Source: Planctomycetota bacterium
Lineage (GTDB): Bacteria; Planctomycetota; UBA1135; GCA-002686595
Assembly (NCBI GenBank): GCA_014238415.1
Contig: JABABA010000001.1
Location: 186,001 to 250,000 of the forward strand
Reading direction: 5' to 3'
DNA length: 64,000 nucleotides
Shown here: one piece after another, positions 51,742 through 62,713 of the stretch
Layout: each line of letters starts with the position of its first letter
How positions within the stretch are numbered: the first letter of the stretch is position 1
Notes under the pieces: model-generated
Databases searched by the model: none
Told to the model about the DNA's origin: nothing
The model's input: the letters and a program-made list of their open reading frames with translations, nothing else
Program-made: the position numbers and the translations under genes

Positions 51742-52734
51742 TCAACCCGCATCACGCCTGGAGCGGCGCTGAAGGTCCCGGTTGGCCTCAAAAATAGTGC
51801 GCATCAGGTCGGCACGCAAGGCGTCCTCAGTACCCAGAGATCGTCCTCCGGCGGCTCCCTCCAGGGAATCATCGCGATCAAGGGAGGCCTGCTTGAAAGC
51901 CCTCAGTTCCCGCAGCTCCTCCTCATTGATCCCCAAACTGCGGGTCAGCTTGGCAATTCGACGCCGCAGCAGGTCCACTTCCGCCTTACCGCTCTCGGTC
52001 ACAGGGCGTCCATCCATTTGAACAACCTGTCCCTCCAGGGCACGACGAACAATTTCGTCAGCCAGCTCCCGAGCTGAATCCTCTAGCCCACCGCCAGCAG
52101 AAACCATCTCGACCAAGCGCTCTCGATAGTCAGGGAACAATTGCTCTGCAGCGGTCTCGACTGGAGCACTGACGGGCTCTGCAGTTGGAAGAGACTCGAG
52201 TTCATAGAGCTCACTTTCTACCCACCGATCCCCACCACCAGCTTCTGCGACGGCCAATCCGTCAAGAGCAACCCGTTCAAGAGTTGCAAAGTCAAGTGCG
52301 TGAGGATTACGACTGTGGCTCGCACCGATTGAGAGACTTATGCGGTGGGTTCCTGTCCCGCCCTCAAAGACGAGAGTACCTGCGCCCGCGATGACCCGTT
52401 TGCAAAGGACCACAAGAGCGTCAGGCGCCAGATGCGGCAAGATCAGGACCAAGCGCTCGTCTTCAGTAAAGCCGAGAAGATCGCCTGCACGAATCGTGCG
52501 CCGGACAAGGTCTACGACAGCGTGGAGAACTTCGTCTTTTGATTCCTGTCCGTGAATCAAGCACAGCTGATCGAGGCGATCAGGATGCAAAGCAAGACAA
52601 CTGACAGGATACCCATGGCGCTGTCCACGTTTGAACTCGACCTCCATCAACGCACGCACCTCCTGCGGCGAAAATAGATTGCCTCCACTACGGGCGAAGG
52701 AATGTGTCGAATCGGCAGTCATCTGGGGGTACAA
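51742..52734 (-). CDS. Degenerate GGDEF-domain protein
   Basis: The protein of 330 aa has a domain whose layout follows GGDEF: EFKRGQRHGYPVSCLALHPDRLDQL, then RRTIRAGDLLGFTEDERLVLILPHL and SLSIGASHSRNP...LERVALDGLAVAEAGGGDRWV. The signature site that reads GGDEF in active diguanylate cyclases is FTEDERL here, so catalysis is not expected; a regulatory or nucleotide-sensing role is possible. The C-terminal half is helical (ELADEIVRRALEGQ; LLRRRIAKLTRSLGINEEELRELRAF), with Arg-rich end. Start M1 or M5. The 3' end lies 356 bp upstream of the CTD-protein start. Confidence 0.62.
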   Translation of the reverse strand: MYPQMTADSTHSFARSGGNLFSPQEVRALMEVEFKRGQRHGYPVSCLALHPDRLDQLCLIHGQESKDEVLHAVVDLVRRTIRAGDLLGFTEDERLVLILPHLAPDALVVLCKRVIAGAGTLVFEGGTGTHRISLSIGASHSRNPHALDFATLERVALDGLAVAEAGGGDRWVESELYELESLPTAEPVSAPVETAAEQLFPDYRERLVEMVSAGGGLEDSARELADEIVRRALEGQVVQMDGRPVTESGKAEVDLLRRRIAKLTRSLGINEEELRELRAFKQASLDRDDSLEGAAGGRSLGTEDALRADLMRTIFEANRDLQRRSRRDAG

Positions 52735-56180: not shown

Positions 56181-57221
56181 CTAACGCCGTTCAGCAAGAA
56201 CAAGGTCGAGAACGAGACCGTAGCTCCTGATCCCCTGTTCCTGGCCCGCAACCTTGAGATAGGTGTCGTTGACCCGCCCTGTTGCCCGTGAGAGAGGGCC
56301 CTGACGAAGGCGCCAGAATTGCCGTACCAGAACTCGACGCTCTTGAAGGGCGGGATGCAACGTCGAAAGAAGCTCCCCCACGAGTTCCGGATTCTGCCCG
56401 GCCAAGGCACGCAGGGCCTGATTCAAGAGGGCAAATCGGGCAGAGTAGCGAGCAGCTGGTTCGGGCGCGTCTCGGAGCACAACCCATGCGATGAAGTTGG
56501 CCTCCTCTTCCCGGGCAATCCCCCGCTGATGCGCAACCTCGTGGGCTGCGGTGTGCCAGATGACGGGCGCGGGAAGCAAACCCTCCAGATGCGCTTCGCC
56601 GGTCCAAGGAGAGTAAACCCCCGCGATTCCAAGGCGCGCCAGCAGGCCCCTGGCAAGGGGAACCCTTAGACGCGCTTGAGTACCCCGCAGCCAAGACCAT
56701 TGCTTGGCCTGCCTGTCAAAAGTCGAGGTCAAAAGTTGCTCCAGGGCATCCGTCGAAGGAGCCAGTTCGGCCTCCCCAAAAGATCCCTCCAGCGCCCTCA
56801 ACTCCCCAGCCAGTTCATGAACCAAGTCAACGAGTTCCTCCTGCTGGGGCTGATCCATGCTCCACCCCAGACGCTGGGCAATCGGGGGACGACAATGATT
56901 CAGGCCCCAGAACAAGATTCCCGACGCCAGAAGAAGGGGAATCAACCAGGCAAGACCAGACAGCAAGGGCACAAGGCCACGACTCAGCCAGCGCAGGCAG
57001 AGCACCAGGATGAGCAATATGCTCAACTCACTGACAGACAGGGGCACCAGGGACAGGAGCAGAGCCTGGACAGTGGCTATCACTGGAAAAACGCCCCCGT
57101 AGACCTGCTCTGCATGGAGCGGGAAAGCTCGGCCCAGCGCGAAGAGCAGAACGCTCAAAAGCAGCAGGCCCAGCGAGCACTTGAGGAGGCGCTTGGGTCC
57201 CGATTCCGGGCTGGTTTCCAT
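56181..57221 (-). CDS. DUF3810-family membrane protein with HExxH
   Basis: The protein of 346 aa starts with four hydrophobic segments (LLKCSLGLLLLSVLLFALGRAF; VYGGVFPVIATVQALLLSLVPL; ILLILVLCLRWLSRGLVPLL; LAWLIPLLLASGILFWGLNH) and then a soluble domain containing WHTAAHEVAHQRGIAREEEANFIAW, a HExxH...E-type zinc motif. This is the DUF3810 pattern, usually predicted as a membrane-bound metalloprotease. The ending GQEQGIRSYGLVLDLVLAERR is conserved-looking. Its substrate is unknown. It lies 14 bp upstream of the PVC heme protein in the same direction and likely shares its transcript. Confidence 0.82.
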   Translation of the reverse strand: METSPESGPKRLLKCSLGLLLLSVLLFALGRAFPLHAEQVYGGVFPVIATVQALLLSLVPLSVSELSILLILVLCLRWLSRGLVPLLSGLAWLIPLLLASGILFWGLNHCRPPIAQRLGWSMDQPQQEELVDLVHELAGELRALEGSFGEAELAPSTDALEQLLTSTFDRQAKQWSWLRGTQARLRVPLARGLLARLGIAGVYSPWTGEAHLEGLLPAPVIWHTAAHEVAHQRGIAREEEANFIAWVVLRDAPEPAARYSARFALLNQALRALAGQNPELVGELLSTLHPALQERRVLVRQFWRLRQGPLSRATGRVNDTYLKVAGQEQGIRSYGLVLDLVLAERR

Positions 57222-57295
57222 GATCGCCAGCTTACGGAGGCGGCTCCAGAGGAAATACCCCTAGCTCGGAAAGGAACAGCGCGGTCCAACAAAAG

Positions 57296-57325
57296 AAGGG
57301 CGCGGCTCCTTCGAGCCGCGCCCTT
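57296..57325 (-). terminator. 13-bp intrinsic terminator for the small membrane-protein gene
   Basis: AAGGGCGCGGCTC (57296-57308) pairs with GAGCCGCGCCCTT (57313-57325) around CTTC. On the minus strand it is followed by CTTTTGTT. A second, weaker hairpin (GGGGACG/CGTCCCC) sits at 57361-57390. The pair probably ends the transcript carrying the MamK-like gene or the small ORF at 57402. Confidence 0.78.
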
Positions 57326-57401
57326 TGTTCAAGCCCATGGGGCCTGAATAAAATGTGAAAGGGGACGAGGACTCTCCAATCCGCGTCCCCAGTCTCACGC
57401 C

Positions 57402-57602
57402 TTAGAACAAACGCTGGTAAGCTCTAAGTGGGGTCAGAGGTTGCTTCTCCATTAGCACAGCCTCATCCCTTGCGGTTCCTCTCAATCGCCAGCCGACTGC
57501 AAAGGCGCAAACGCACCCCCCCAGCCAACCAAGCATGCCCAAGCCCATCAAAAGACCAAAACCGGTCCCGGGGCCAACGATATTAAAAATACTCTCTCCC
57601 AT
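57402..57602 (-). CDS. Small single-pass membrane protein, putative
   Basis: From the ATG at 57602 the 66-aa product has one glycine-rich hydrophobic stretch (GFGLLMGLGMLGWLGGCVCAFAVGWRL) and a basic/polar tail (RGTARDEAVLMEKQPLTPLRAYQRLF). The longer track version starts with TTG. The terminator at 57296-57325 and the orientation after the MamK-like gene support expression, but no family is recognised. It could be membrane-anchored partner or unrelated. Moderate doubt. Confidence 0.45.
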   Translation of the reverse strand: MGESIFNIVGPGTGFGLLMGLGMLGWLGGCVCAFAVGWRLRGTARDEAVLMEKQPLTPLRAYQRLF

Positions 57603-57831
57603 GCAGAGTCCATAGGACGGGTACGCCAACTGTCACCCCCTTGCATGGCTGTCCATGCAGGGATGAGGTTTCCAGGCAGCATCTTGTCTCTGCTCTTGCC
57701 AAGCTCAGGAAGTCACTGCCCCCTTCCAGGCGTCCACAAGCCCATTAATTCGCATGATTGAGACAGGGGCCAGGCTCAATGGCTGGCGCAAGGTTTTGTC
57801 TGCAGCCAGACTCAGCCCTGGGAAAACAACA
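57603..57831. other. 229-bp gap between small ORF and MamK-like gene
   Basis: Nothing recognisable. An ORF at 57705-57899 minus overlaps the MamK-like stop in another frame and looks like a shadow. Confidence 0.4.
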
Positions 57832-58887
57832 TCACTCCTGTAACTCGGTCCAATAATCCGCAGGCATGTCGTGGGCAATCTTGAGGGCTCCATTGGCACC
57901 TCCGTAGATAGGCTCCTCGATTCGGACCACCTTCCCGGAGCCGAGATGCTCCCGCATATAGGCTTCGATAGCCTTGTCCAGGCCCTGAATCATGCTTCCG
58001 CCCCCGGCCAGCAAAACCCGTCCCTTGAGTTTGTCCTGGAACTCAGGATCGAAGGTCGCCACCAGCTTGCCCAAGCCTTCCACCACCGGTGGAATCATCT
58101 CCCCGCAGGCTTTCCGCATGCACTCCGTGATGTCGAAGGAAGTAGGTTTACCGTTGACGGGCAGATCCACCATGATCTTCCCAGAAGTGGGCTCCACCGT
58201 GGAATAGCGTTCCTTGATCGCCTTGATCATCTGCTTGGTGTGCTGAGCGTCGGGGTAGGCACGGCTGATCTCCTTGGCCAGTTCGTCATCCACGAAGTCA
58301 CCCGCGCTGGGCAGGGTCAATTGATCGGTATCGTCAGGCATGGTGCCGTGCATGCGGCAAAGGTCCACCGTTCCCGCGCCGATGTCGATGACCAGCACAT
58401 CGTCATACATATCGAGGCCATAGGCCACGGCAAAGGGCTCGGAGCAGAGCATGACCGAGTCCACGGATTCCCTGGCGGCCTGAAGAATCGCGTCCTTGTT
58501 GTGAATCGAAGCCTGGGCAGGAACACCGATCACCGCATAGACCAATTCATCGGGGCGCGGCGCAGCAAGGCGTACGATCTCCTGCACCAGGTCCTTTGCA
58601 GCTTTGAGGCTCTCCTCGTCCTCCTCATCATCCTTGTTGAAGGACAGGACCCCATGCTCCAGGGGCCGATGCAAGCGCAAGGAGAGGCGCTTGTCCCTGG
58701 CTTCCTGGCCAAAAAGCACGTCCTTGCCCAGCAGCTTGCGCGCCACGGGGTCCTTGGGATATCCAACGAAGGACTCCACTGTTTCACGCATACCATTGGA
58801 TGCGGTCACGCTGGTGCGCGAAGTACCAAGGTCGATTCCAAGATAGAGGACGCCTTTGTCCTCGCCGTCGGCAGGCTCTTCAGTCAT
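57832..58887 (-). CDS. MamK-like actin (filament-forming ATPase)
   Basis: The protein of 351 aa is an actin/Hsp70-fold ATPase and matches MamK rather than MreB, ParM or FtsA. Phosphate-1: YLGIDLGTSRTSV (about 15-27). The MamK-like VGYPKDPVARKLLGKDVLFGQEA follows. Connect-1 is AVIGVPAQASIHNK; then SEPFAVAYGLD; phosphate-2 VLVIDIGAGTVDLC (about 163-176); GTMPDDTDQLTLPSAGDFVDD; adenosine motif VLLAGGGSMIQGL (about 290); and a C-terminus GALKIAHDMPADYWTELQE, much like the MamK ending. The MamK catalytic Asp equivalent (in DIGAGT) is retained. In magnetotactic bacteria MamK filaments position magnetosomes; no other magnetosome genes are here, so the cargo is unknown. It begins 97 bp downstream of a basic coiled-coil gene. 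Confidence 0.9.
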   Translation of the reverse strand: MTEEPADGEDKGVLYLGIDLGTSRTSVTASNGMRETVESFVGYPKDPVARKLLGKDVLFGQEARDKRLSLRLHRPLEHGVLSFNKDDEEDEESLKAAKDLVQEIVRLAAPRPDELVYAVIGVPAQASIHNKDAILQAARESVDSVMLCSEPFAVAYGLDMYDDVLVIDIGAGTVDLCRMHGTMPDDTDQLTLPSAGDFVDDELAKEISRAYPDAQHTKQMIKAIKERYSTVEPTSGKIMVDLPVNGKPTSFDITECMRKACGEMIPPVVEGLGKLVATFDPEFQDKLKGRVLLAGGGSMIQGLDKAIEAYMREHLGSGKVVRIEEPIYGGANGALKIAHDMPADYWTELQE

Positions 58888-58984
58888 GGTTGATGCTCAG
58901 GTTTGGCTCCACCCCAGATCAGGCAATGGACCGGATCACGGGAACCGCCTGCGAATCATACGCAGCCCATTGGGCCGTTGGCCC

Positions 58985-59422
58985 CTAAGAATCCAGGACC
59001 TGCTGAGCAAGTTCCTTGCGAAGGGCCACGTTGGCCACAAAGATCGCGCGCATGGCGGCCGCATGGCGCTTGCCAGTCTTGCGATCGCGCCCGGGGATCA
59101 AGGTTCGCGGAGGGGGCACAGGCTTGAGAACAGACCGTGAACCGAGTGAACTTCTCAGGCTCTCCAGTTCACTCGCTTGATCCTCTACCCTCCGCATCAG
59201 GCTGACTAGCCGCTTTTGGAGCTTCTGATCCGGTTCCCTTCTGTCATGTGGACCCTTGGCACGTGGAGCCGTTGAAGGAACCCGTTTTTCAGCTTCAGGG
59301 GCTTCCGTACGAGCCGGAACCAACATCCAGGAGCCCTCTCTGGAGCCAGCAAGCGGGCGTGAGGGGCGCTCTAGGACGATCGGGTGGATCACCCGCATAG
59401 GTGCTTTGGGGCGGCGAAACAT
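58985..59422 (-). CDS. Basic coiled-coil protein preceding the MamK-like gene, function unknown
   Basis: From the ATG at 59422 the 145-aa protein (MFRRPKAPMRVIHPIVLERPSRPL...) is rich in Arg, Lys and Pro with a coiled-coil core (KLQKRLVSLMRRVEDQASELESLRSSLGS) and a C-terminal helix (MRAIFVANVALRKELAQQVLDS). The track start at 59542 adds 40 less plausible residues. No family is recognised. Position and high charge make it a candidate accessory factor for the actin-like filament. Confidence 0.5.
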   Translation of the reverse strand: MFRRPKAPMRVIHPIVLERPSRPLAGSREGSWMLVPARTEAPEAEKRVPSTAPRAKGPHDRREPDQKLQKRLVSLMRRVEDQASELESLRSSLGSRSVLKPVPPPRTLIPGRDRKTGKRHAAAMRAIFVANVALRKELAQQVLDS

Positions 59423-59773
59423 GGCAGGAGGTACCAGGAATACCCTATTTGCCACAATCCGTGTTGTTCCCAGGGGCTTTTTTGAATCAAGAAAAGCAAT
59501 CAAGCCCATCCAGTGCACGGAGTCGGCCGGACCGGTCCTCAAATTGCGGGCATTTCCCCTTCTTCACAAGCCCGGGAGCAAGGCAGTGACTGGTCCCTGG
59601 CCGAGCAAGATGCTTCCCCAGGCGCGCCTCTCAGAGGAGACTGACCCTGTGAAAGGACCACCGGAACGCTTGGTCTGAACCTGCAACCCTATCCCAGTGC
59701 TTCCGGCGTCCGAGGCTTGAAAGTCCAGGGCCCTGTGGGACCATTCCCTCGGGAGCACAAGGCCAGGCGCGGT
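59423..59773. other. Intergenic stretch upstream of the coiled-coil gene
   Basis: About 350 bases between the NodT stop and the coiled-coil start (both minus). It includes the optional N-terminal extension. I see no clear terminator, RNA or repeats. Confidence 0.35.
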
Positions 59774-61243
59774 CTAGCGGGTGGAACTATCGGCGGGAGC
59801 TTCCGCCACACCGCTGGCCTCTTCCCCCCCAAGAGCCAACCAAAGATCAAGGCGCGTCTCCAACGCAGCCCGCCGGGCATGCAGCAGCTCCGCATCCGCA
59901 GCCAGCCGGCCTCGCCGGGCATCGAGCACGATCACGATGCCCACCAAGCCACTGATGTACTGTTCCTGGGCCAGGCGCTCCGCCTCCAGGAACTCCTCGC
60001 TCATCTGCTGCAAGGCAACCAACCGCGCATCCACAAGAGAGCAACGCACCAGTGCTGACTCGACTTCTCCACAGGCACGCAGCACCAACCCGGCCCACTC
60101 CGCCAGGACTGCACGGGTCTGGGAATCTTGAGCTCTTACCCCGGCCCGCAGGCTCCCTGAGTCGAAGACCGGACGAGTCAGGTTGGTCGCAAGGGACCAG
60201 ATTCCGAAATCCGAATCAGTCAGATCTCCGGGTTCATCAGATGAGGCCCCCCCTGAAGCGCTGAGAGAAAGCCGCGGATAGAGATCTGCGCGGGCCACCT
60301 GAGAACGTGCCGCTGCGGCTTCAGCGCGAATCCGCGCCGCCTGAAGATCCGGGCGACGGCCCAGCAAGGCAGCAGGAATCCCCGCCGAGACAGCCGGGGG
60401 AATATCAGGGAAGGTATGGGCGGCGCTGAGTTCCCCCGCGGGGTATCGCCCCAGCAGGACCTCCATGGCGCGGGCCGCCAGATCATTGGCCTGTTCCACC
60501 TCCAACAAGCTCGCACGGGCCCGGGCCGTATTGGCGGCAGTCAGTCGCAGATCCAGGGCCGGACCAACTCCCGCATCAAAACGGCTGCGCGCCCAGCGCT
60601 CACTTGTCTCCCAACTGGCCAGGGTCTGCTCGGCAAGGAGCAGCTGCTGATGCGCCTCCAAGAGGATAAACCAGGCCCGACAGACCTGGCCCGCCAAAGA
60701 CAGGCGCGCTCCCTCCAGTTCTATCCTTGCGGCTCGGGAATCCGCGTCCGCAGCCCGTGCCCCGGCCCGCACCCGGCCCCAGAGATCCACCTCCCAGGAG
60801 GCAGACAGGCCTGAATTCCAACTGGAAGTTGTGCTCGTCAACACAGAGTCCCCGATTCCCGGAATGGGCAGGCCGATGTAGTTGCGCCGGTTGCGTTGAA
60901 AATCCAGACCAGCCAGGACGCTGGGATAGAGGCCCGCCCGGGCGATCACACCTTGGGCTGCCACCGCCTCAACCCGCTGGGCTGCCGCCATCAGGCTCTG
61001 GTTGTGCCCCAGAGCCTCTACGATCAGGGCTTCGAGACGAGGGTCACCCAGTTGATCCAAGAACTGGAAAGGCGCTTGTGGGTCTGCCCCCATGGGCGCA
61101 GACCAGGTGGCCGGCAGAGGCAGAATGGGCTTGCTTACCTGGGGCGCTGGACCGACGCAGGCGGAAACCAAGAAGCACAGACAGACCTGAACAGGAAGGG
61201 ACTGGAATTGAAGTGAAGTCAAGGGAATGGAAAGCAGGCCCAC
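59774..61243 (-). CDS. Outer-membrane factor of RND/type I efflux (NodT/TolC-family lipoprotein)
   Basis: The protein of 489 aa is the outer-membrane channel of a tripartite exporter. It has a lipobox (VCLCFLVSACVGPAP), then two repeats of helical hairpins: FQFLDQLGDPRLEALIVEALGHNQSLMAAAQRVEAVAAQG, FQRNRRNYIGLPIPG, ASWEVDLWGRVRAGARAADADSRAARIELEGARLSLAGQVCRAWFILL, and in the second half RRPDLQAARIRAEAAAARSQVARADLYPRLSLSASGG (NodT signature LGRRPDLQAARIR). No RND pump or periplasmic adaptor is adjacent, so it is orphan here. The promoter should lie in 61244-61588, shared with the divergent SPFH gene. Confidence 0.92.
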   Translation of the reverse strand: MGLLSIPLTSLQFQSLPVQVCLCFLVSACVGPAPQVSKPILPLPATWSAPMGADPQAPFQFLDQLGDPRLEALIVEALGHNQSLMAAAQRVEAVAAQGVIARAGLYPSVLAGLDFQRNRRNYIGLPIPGIGDSVLTSTTSSWNSGLSASWEVDLWGRVRAGARAADADSRAARIELEGARLSLAGQVCRAWFILLEAHQQLLLAEQTLASWETSERWARSRFDAGVGPALDLRLTAANTARARASLLEVEQANDLAARAMEVLLGRYPAGELSAAHTFPDIPPAVSAGIPAALLGRRPDLQAARIRAEAAAARSQVARADLYPRLSLSASGGASSDEPGDLTDSDFGIWSLATNLTRPVFDSGSLRAGVRAQDSQTRAVLAEWAGLVLRACGEVESALVRCSLVDARLVALQQMSEEFLEAERLAQEQYISGLVGIVIVLDARRGRLAADAELLHARRAALETRLDLWLALGGEEASGVAEAPADSSTR

Positions 61244-61588
61244 AGCAACTGGACGGGCCGGTCCCGGGAAGGAGTTCTCCAGCAGCTGGAGTCAGGGGCG
61301 GCCCCAAGGAAACTCGGAAGCGGGCAGTATTGGGTAAAAGGTGGAAGGATGGTCTCGCTCAGTGCTGGTTTTCGATGATGCCTGACAGAAGGCAAAACCC
61401 CAAGGACGGGAAGAGCGCTCTATTGGCAAACAGCCACTTTGGACCCTCAGAAGGCGTCAACATACGCTCTGAACGGGGACCAGCAGTTGAGAATGAATGC
61501 CCCGGGCCTCCGCTGCGTAGAATGTACAGGGCGACCCCCACTCTCGGGGATCGCAGGACGGATTGACCCCCACAAAGAGGATAGCGAG
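61244..61588. other. 345-bp divergent intergenic region
   Basis: This lies between the NodT-type gene (minus) and the SPFH gene (plus). The only clear signal is AAAGAGG at 61574-61580, a Shine-Dalgarno about 8 bases before the SPFH ATG at 61589. No tRNA, repeat or strong hairpin is visible. Confidence 0.45.
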
Positions 61589-62713
61589 ATGGGCGTGATG
61601 GACTGGTTCAAACAAGGCACATCGGAACTGATGGTGGCGCGCCCGGATGGCGCCAAGGCCCAGGTGGTCTGGAAGCACCCTGACCCCACCATCCCCACAA
61701 TGGCCCAACTGACAGTTGAAGCCGATGAGGTCGCGCTCTTCTTCAAGGATGGCAAAGTAGTGGGCACCCTCCAGCCAGGCCGCCACACCCTGGACACAGC
61801 GAACATTCCCTTCTTTTCCAACCTGATCGATTCCTTCACCGGCGGCAACGTGCTGATCTCCGAAGTGTTCTTCGTCAACACCCGCGAACACGTGGGCGCG
61901 CGTTTTGGCGGCCGTATCGGACATGTGGAAGATCCCAAGTCGGGCGTTCCCGTGGAGACCCTGGTGCATGGAGAATTCAGCTTCCGGGTCGTTGATCCTG
62001 AACAACTGGTGATTGGCCTGGTAGGTATGGGCCGCGCGGAATCCTTCGCCGTCAAAGCCTGGCTCAAGGAACAGGTCCTCAAGGTCATGCGCGACCGCGT
62101 CGCAGAGACCCTGGTCAAGCGAAAGTGGCCGCTGCTCGATGTGACCAGCGGCGCGTACACCGAAGAATTGGAACAAGAGGTGCTCACGGGCCTGGACGCC
62201 CATGTGGCCCCCTATGGCCTGAGCATCGTGCGACTGGGCAACTTCGTGGTGGGCATGGACGAGGACGACTCAGAGCACCTCAAGACCCTTTACCGAGATG
62301 CGGCTTATCTACGCACCGTTGGTGGCGTGGAAAAATACCAGCGCTTCGCCGCAGGCAAGGCTTTCATGGGCGCAGGCGAGGGCATGGCCGCTGGAACCAT
62401 GGGCGGCGGTGGTGGCGATGGTGGCGGCGGTGGTGGTGGCAACCTTGCCGCTGGAGCCAGCCTGGGCATCGGTCTAGGCATGGCGCAGATGTTGATCAAA
62501 GACAACGCAGGGGGCGATACGCTGGCCCCGGTCACTGCTGGAGTTGTCTGCGGCTCCTGCCAGGCAAGCGTTGCTCCCGGCAAATTCTGCAGCCAATGCG
62601 GCGGCGCTCTCAAGCCGCCGGTGGCTGCAAGTCCCCTGGCCTGCAGCGGCTGCGGCGAAGCCATGGCTCCGGACGCGAAGTTCTGTCCTTCCTGCGGAGG
62701 AGCAAGGGGCTAG
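61589..62713 (+). CDS. SPFH-domain protein with C-terminal zinc ribbons
   Basis: The protein of 374 aa begins at the ATG at 61589, preceded by AAAGAGG, and not at the track start 61439. The N-terminal 240 residues are an SPFH/virion-core-like domain (MGVMDWFKQGTSELMVARPDGA, VTVEADE-like strands, FFVNTREHVGARFGG, VHGEFSFRVVDPEQLV, FAVKAWLKEQVLKVMRDRVAETL). A Gly-rich linker follows, then two zinc ribbons (CGSCQASVAPGKFCSQCG and CSGCGEAMAPDAKFCPSCG). No transmembrane helix is visible. Proteins of this layout are conserved in many bacteria and associated with membranes, but their function is unknown. Confidence 0.8.
   Translation: MGVMDWFKQGTSELMVARPDGAKAQVVWKHPDPTIPTMAQLTVEADEVALFFKDGKVVGTLQPGRHTLDTANIPFFSNLIDSFTGGNVLISEVFFVNTREHVGARFGGRIGHVEDPKSGVPVETLVHGEFSFRVVDPEQLVIGLVGMGRAESFAVKAWLKEQVLKVMRDRVAETLVKRKWPLLDVTSGAYTEELEQEVLTGLDAHVAPYGLSIVRLGNFVVGMDEDDSEHLKTLYRDAAYLRTVGGVEKYQRFAAGKAFMGAGEGMAAGTMGGGGGDGGGGGGGNLAAGASLGIGLGMAQMLIKDNAGGDTLAPVTAGVVCGSCQASVAPGKFCSQCGGALKPPVAASPLACSGCGEAMAPDAKFCPSCGGARG

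Follow-up and report, generated by a model that had tools for sequence, protein, structure and literature searches.

A MamK-family actin and a family of modular coiled-coil partners in Planctomycetota

The window, a stretch of 64,000 nucleotides from a planctomycete genome, encodes a MamK-family actin-like ATPase (P0001) immediately downstream of a coiled-coil protein whose C-terminal module is usually co-inherited with this actin across the phylum. P0001 probably polymerises into ATP-dependent filaments that work with coiled-coil adaptors, one of them encoded immediately upstream, in a job other than building magnetosomes. The occurrence of the actin together with its partner points to a bacterial cytoskeleton module that is widespread and has so far gone undescribed. 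The first-pass annotation of this DNA had placed the actin gene exactly, without giving its strand, which is the minus strand (Table 1). It had overlooked the near-core status of the gene in the order and both partners in the window, the coiled-coil protein encoded upstream and the one 5 kb downstream.

Table 1. Location of the actin gene, the module proteins and other features in the window and elsewhere in the same genome
Feature	Position	Strand	Description
MamK-family actin-like ATPase P0001	57832..58887	minus	351 aa, ATG to TGA; assigned by NCBIfam, PDB and AlphaFold2
Upstream partner (adaptor)	58985..59542	minus	at most 185 aa (uncertain start codon); diverged module
Second partner	51742..52734	minus	330 aa; degenerate GGDEF, helices and C-terminal module; ~5 kb downstream of the actin gene
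Third partner	contig C1 of the same genome, ~61187-62008		273 aa; module match; ends KRALLSAIFEANVELRAALDS
Small ORF	57402-57629	minus	75 aa, glycine-rich, hydrophobic; ~200 bp downstream of the actin gene
SPFH/Band 7 protein	61439-62713	plus	double zinc ribbon at C-terminus
BMC shell genes (four matches) and mreB	G000:C19:32084-36677 and G000:C19:20292-21281		shell genes ~11 kb from mreB, on one contig

Family, fold and distribution of the actin

P0001 reached 420.4 bits (E 4.7e-126) on the NCBIfam MamK model NF040964, for which the curated cut-off is 400 bits, whereas it remained below the cut-offs of the models for other bacterial actins (197.9 vs. 530 bits for BeeR, NF053558; 60.6 and 50.6 vs. 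293 and 365.75 bits for two MreB models; 17.4 vs. 417 bits for ParM). Pfam gave superfamily-level matches only (MreB_Mbl with 58 bits, Salactin and FtsA). Matches in the PDB were led by Magnetospirillum MamK (5ljw, E 5e-78), followed by BeeR (8r2n, E 1e-38), and 131 of 337 positions (~39%) were identical to the MamK of strain AMB-1. The AlphaFold2 model had a mean pLDDT of 91, values lower than 50 being limited to residues 1-9 and the first strand starting at residue 13. Its best structural match by VIA-align was the MamK filament subunit 5ljv (Z 42.3, 1.9 Å, 325 residues), ahead of BeeR (Z 38.3) and MreB (Z 32.6). Residues E150 and D168 align with E143 and D161, the catalytic residues of MamK, and both were invariant in 50 relatives. 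The phosphate and adenosine motifs of actins were present (DLGTSR, DIGAGT and AGGGS), and the motifs quoted in the first-pass annotation were found in the translation, which contains VGYPKD, IGVPAQASIHNK, SEPFAVAYGLD, DIGAGTVDLC and A..MPADYW.EL. Model score, fold and catalytic residues place P0001 in the MamK sequence family. The earlier reading of a protein similar to MamK throughout, and distinct from MreB, ParM and FtsA, is thus borne out.

BeeR is a MamK-related actin of non-magnetotactic bacteria (Bergeron et al., PMC11929497). The BeeR of Verrucomicrobiota (8r2n) shares with P0001 the condition of a MamK-related actin in non-magnetotactic PVC bacteria, but it carries a disordered N-terminal extension of 30-50 residues that P0001 lacks; P0001 is further separated from it by its low score on the BeeR model and by its position on the MamK side of the tree. 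MreB belongs to the same bacterial actin superfamily, but the true MreB of this genome is encoded at another locus (G000:C19, 460 bits). A close MamK match was present in 52 of the 61 genomes of the order, including this one, and in 114 of 294 Planctomycetota genomes when E values of 1e-60 or better were counted. The relatives that could be named came from GTDB genomes and were mostly uncultured Planctomycetota. In the order, judged from these genomes, the MamK-like protein thus stands beside MreB as a second actin that is near-core. FtsZ, in turn, was found in none of the 61 genomes of the order, this one included, in agreement with the remark of the first-pass annotation that planctomycetes often lack FtsZ, and it was discarded as a partner on these grounds.

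Some possible associations of the actin were also considered. The shell genes of bacterial microcompartments (BMC) listed in Table 1 have counterparts lying similarly near mreB in several relatives. As an obligatory cargo, BMC shells were rejected: they are encoded in this genome, but mamK is retained in families f5-f7, where no shell genes were detected. Flagellar motility was rejected as well, FliG not being found in this genome and being uncorrelated with mamK. Both are thus unlikely as obligatory cargos, given that mamK persists without their detectable marker genes; among the roles offered by the first-pass annotation (membranes, protein bodies or motility), BMC-type protein bodies and flagellar motility find no support as an obligatory job. 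The small ORF downstream of the actin gene has counterparts in very close relatives (conserved at 73-92%) and, in part, in G006; none was seen in other loci.

A C-terminal module common to the partners

An ORF scan showed that the gene directly preceding mamK, in the same orientation, has a common C-terminal module across loci. It is about 77 aa long (consensus LERRIxKLxxxLxxTExELxR....DxGVASIYRxVQGL....KKxLMxxIFEANLxL) and closes with a short IFEANxxL-like helix; the partners that end in it are coiled-coil proteins. Of 80 GTDB loci retrieved separately, some of them sharing a species, 79 had enough sequence, and in 77 of these the module was encoded by the mamK strand immediately upstream. 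Search with a profile HMM built from alignment A3 detected it in 79 of the 294 phylum genomes, all 79 of them with MamK, and in none of the 180 phylum genomes without MamK. Most of the copies in the phylum sample (82 of 101) were within 1.5 kb upstream of mamK and on the same strand, and those encoded away from mamK were likewise confined to genomes with MamK. The Fisher test of this association gave p = 2.6e-44, uncorrected for relatedness, which overstates independence because the counts include related genomes.

The same trend was found within the order. The module was present in all 52 genomes with MamK and missing from six of the nine in which MamK had no strong match; the three of these nine that have it are 78-79% complete. 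In family f5, two genomes (G048 and G060) had both MamK and the module and five (G040, G044, G051, G054, and G057) had neither. Partners detectable by the HMM were lacking in 35 of the 114 phylum genomes with MamK. In families f26, f31, and f78 there was no profile match, yet the motif of the closing helix persists in the upstream ORF, where a single protein can have as many as three copies (e.g., LLAGLVRENQALR), the background for this motif being 10 of 518 other neighbouring ORFs. Neither module nor helix motif revealed a partner in f30 and in the BeeR-side paralogues. Across the phylum, then, the module partner is usually co-inherited with the MamK-like actin. No actin site linked to the presence of the partner is claimed, since the columns differing from AMB-1 MamK were scattered and mostly kept in f30, the family with no detectable partner.

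Two other readings bear on this distribution. The lack of FtsZ in 61 of 61 genomes of the order and the near-core standing of the actin gene would suit a cytoskeleton serving mainly cell shape, budding or division, supplementing MreB and with the partner marking the site of growth or of the bud; we consider it unlikely, as a true MreB is also encoded, the five f5 genomes mentioned above live without MamK and without partner, and the linked unit includes no division or peptidoglycan gene. It could also be that actin and partner are inherited and encoded together without touching each other, the C-terminal helix binding some other target such as the membrane, which short hydrophobic helices can do as well. 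This we regard as quite unlikely in view of the 180 MamK-less phylum genomes where the module was not found and of the restriction to MamK genomes even of copies encoded away from mamK. The preferred reading remains that of adaptors acting together with the filament.

Three module proteins were found in the genome studied here, two of them in the window. The stop of the upstream partner lies 97 bp before the start of the mamK-like gene. Its module (~58985-59230, ending ...KRHAAAMRAIFVANVALRKELAQQVLDS) is diverged and stayed below the threshold in the HMM search; the orthologues in G002, G004, and G006 matched the HMM (1.3e-5 to 3.8e-7). The protein is 78% identical to that encoded at the same place in a congener and 33% to that of G006. 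In the second partner the module (51763-51984, ending ...RADLMRTIFEANRDLQRR) was recovered by the whole-genome search with an E value of 1.1e-11, and a GGDEF domain occupies residues ~10-178 (Pfam E 1.6e-8). The AlphaFold2 model of this protein matched GGDEF structures (Z 17-22); its closing segment, residues 301-329, was helical with pLDDT block means of 71-88, and its middle part was poorly predicted. The N-terminal fold (Z up to 22) is thus that of GGDEF diguanylate cyclases, but FTEDER replaces the GG[DE]EF active-site signature, which is likewise lost in the aligned relatives; with this loss, the protein is probably a sensor or scaffold and not an enzyme.

The N-termini of the partner ORFs in the GTDB set comprised 33 degenerate GGDEF domains, 26 helical domains and 21 with neither, no ORF having both; the counts of 26 and 21 are rough, the helical-domain profile having been seeded with few sequences. 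A PilZ-like N-terminus suspected by eye in partners of f17 and f23 had no Pfam match. Partners of f17 (L080, L095, and L097) and of L187 have a further common C-terminal motif, VKKM.I.NPLDFTPPPLEK-like, which reads VKFTNFEAPQLEK in G096 and is repeated in places.

An actin gene next to an adaptor gene is also the layout of parMR and alfAB, the two-gene systems for DNA segregation. A ParM/AlfA-like actin with a DNA-binding adaptor as its partner would reproduce this layout; it has little support here and we hold it to be very improbable. The family is MamK and the ParM model gave only the low score reported above, none of the partners scanned had a DNA-binding Pfam domain that passed its cut-off, and the actin gene is near-core in the order. 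There was also no centromere-like repeat array in 57200-59900, although a centromere may lie elsewhere.

Relation to magnetosomes and evolution of the family

No magnetosome gene was in view for the first-pass annotation, and no mam protein was present among the window proteins examined; the other genes looked at there are unrelated and code for a DUF3810 protein, a large heme-binding/HEAT protein, an efflux protein of the outer membrane and the SPFH/zinc-ribbon protein. The genome-wide check for such genes that it had called for was carried out with the magnetochrome domain as single marker, and no match was obtained in this genome. This negative result is strong evidence but not final, because the genome is 88.9% complete. 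The search over the 294 phylum genomes gave three matches (G096, G071, and G245); 112 of the 114 phylum genomes with MamK had none. In G096 and G071 there were magnetosome-like clusters combining magnetochrome, CDF transporter, and TauE or trypsin-like genes (L186 and L187 in G096; L190 and L191 in G071), with TPR genes also among them. G071 has its cluster but gave no close match to MamK, and near its magnetochrome gene long coiled-coil proteins are encoded. G245 was not counted as having a cluster: its match is on a short contig where no other cluster gene was seen.

The MamK of the G096 magnetosome cluster scored 378 bits on NF040964, below P0001 and below the cut-off of that model, and the NCBIfam name "MamK family" is therefore no evidence for magnetosomes. 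With no magnetochrome gene found in its genome and a distribution that is near-universal in the order and wide in Planctomycetota, P0001 appears not to be magnetosomal. That the gene belongs, as a remnant or an outlier, to a magnetosome island located elsewhere in the genome is extremely improbable. Its family name and the existence of planctomycete magnetosome clusters, one of them with the same mamK-partner pair, are compatible with such an origin, but the search that recovers the magnetochrome domain in G096 and G071 does not recover it in this genome nor in nearly all others bearing MamK, and the gene is widespread and conserved in sequence.

In a tree of 74 sequences, AMB-1 MamK and the BeeR-type sequences were outside the planctomycete MamK-like clade (96/91), and P0001 did not group with MreB, a placement that the first-pass annotation had named as contradicting its proposal. 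The magnetosome-cluster MamK of G096 was nested in the planctomycete clade together with sequences of f17/f77 (99/93), and the same nesting was obtained in a tree without MreB. Forcing the two magnetosome MamKs together was mildly rejected (p-AU 0.035), the constraint group having been picked after the first tree and AMB-1 MamK being a long branch. Separate planctomycete actins (L204-L207 and L211-L213), with ~230-265 bits on the MamK model, grouped with the BeeR of Verrucomicrobiota.

A module protein is encoded directly upstream of the magnetosome mamK of G096 (ORF 1455-2333 of L187; profile E 1.4e-4), so the actin-partner pair is common to magnetosome and non-magnetosome contexts. The phylogeny suggests recruitment into magnetosomes rather than the reverse, a direction that is not settled because the tree contains a single non-planctomycete MamK, the alphaproteobacterial one of AMB-1; further magnetosome MamK sequences were sought on plasmids, where only MreB-like matches appeared. 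Tentatively, the actin may be an ancient one, present throughout the phylum and working in a non-magnetosome job with modular adaptors that have a filament-binding helix in common, from which the planctomycete magnetosome skeleton might have been recruited as an intact pair. Planctobacterial MamK has already been called an actin ancestor by Cavalier-Smith (PMC7203096).

Proposed mode of action and significance

On the reading that we prefer, P0001 most likely assembles into filaments in an ATP-dependent manner, and the adaptor and the actin are encoded in an operon-like two-gene unit. We infer that the common C-terminal module, ending in its short helix, is the element binding the filament directly; through its variable N-terminus and coiled coil the adaptor may tie this filament to cargo, to a site in the membrane or to a signal. 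The job might be, for example, positioning or segregating intracellular structures, or the site of envelope growth, in cells without FtsZ. Such a system would be comparable to MamK acting with MamJ, or with the coiled-coil Mad proteins, but without magnetosomes.

Magnetospirillum MamK (5ljv/5ljw) resembles P0001 in family, fold and catalytic residues, at ~39% identity. There mamJ precedes mamK, and in both systems a candidate tether gene adjoins the actin gene. In contrast, no magnetosome cluster was detected with P0001, AMB-1 MamK falls outside the planctomycete clade, and the partner of P0001 is a coiled-coil module protein. In Desulfovibrio magneticus RS-1, coiled-coil Mad proteins interact with MamK in two-hybrid assays and organise the chains of magnetosomes (PMC12748827). 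Mad20, Mad23, Mad25, and Mad26, with MamK and Mad28, resemble the partner proposed here as coiled-coil proteins acting together with MamK filaments, a likeness of description, but they are part of magnetosome clusters.

Division without FtsZ and elaborate internal membranes are features of many planctomycetes, but their actin cytoskeleton beyond MreB was uncharacterised in the literature found. A near-core MamK-family actin with a dedicated adaptor family provides handles on it in the form of a gene pair, the short closing helix and a defined pattern of presence and absence. These results set the MamK name apart from magnetosomes, and suggest that a positioning system already in place can give rise to a magnetosome skeleton.
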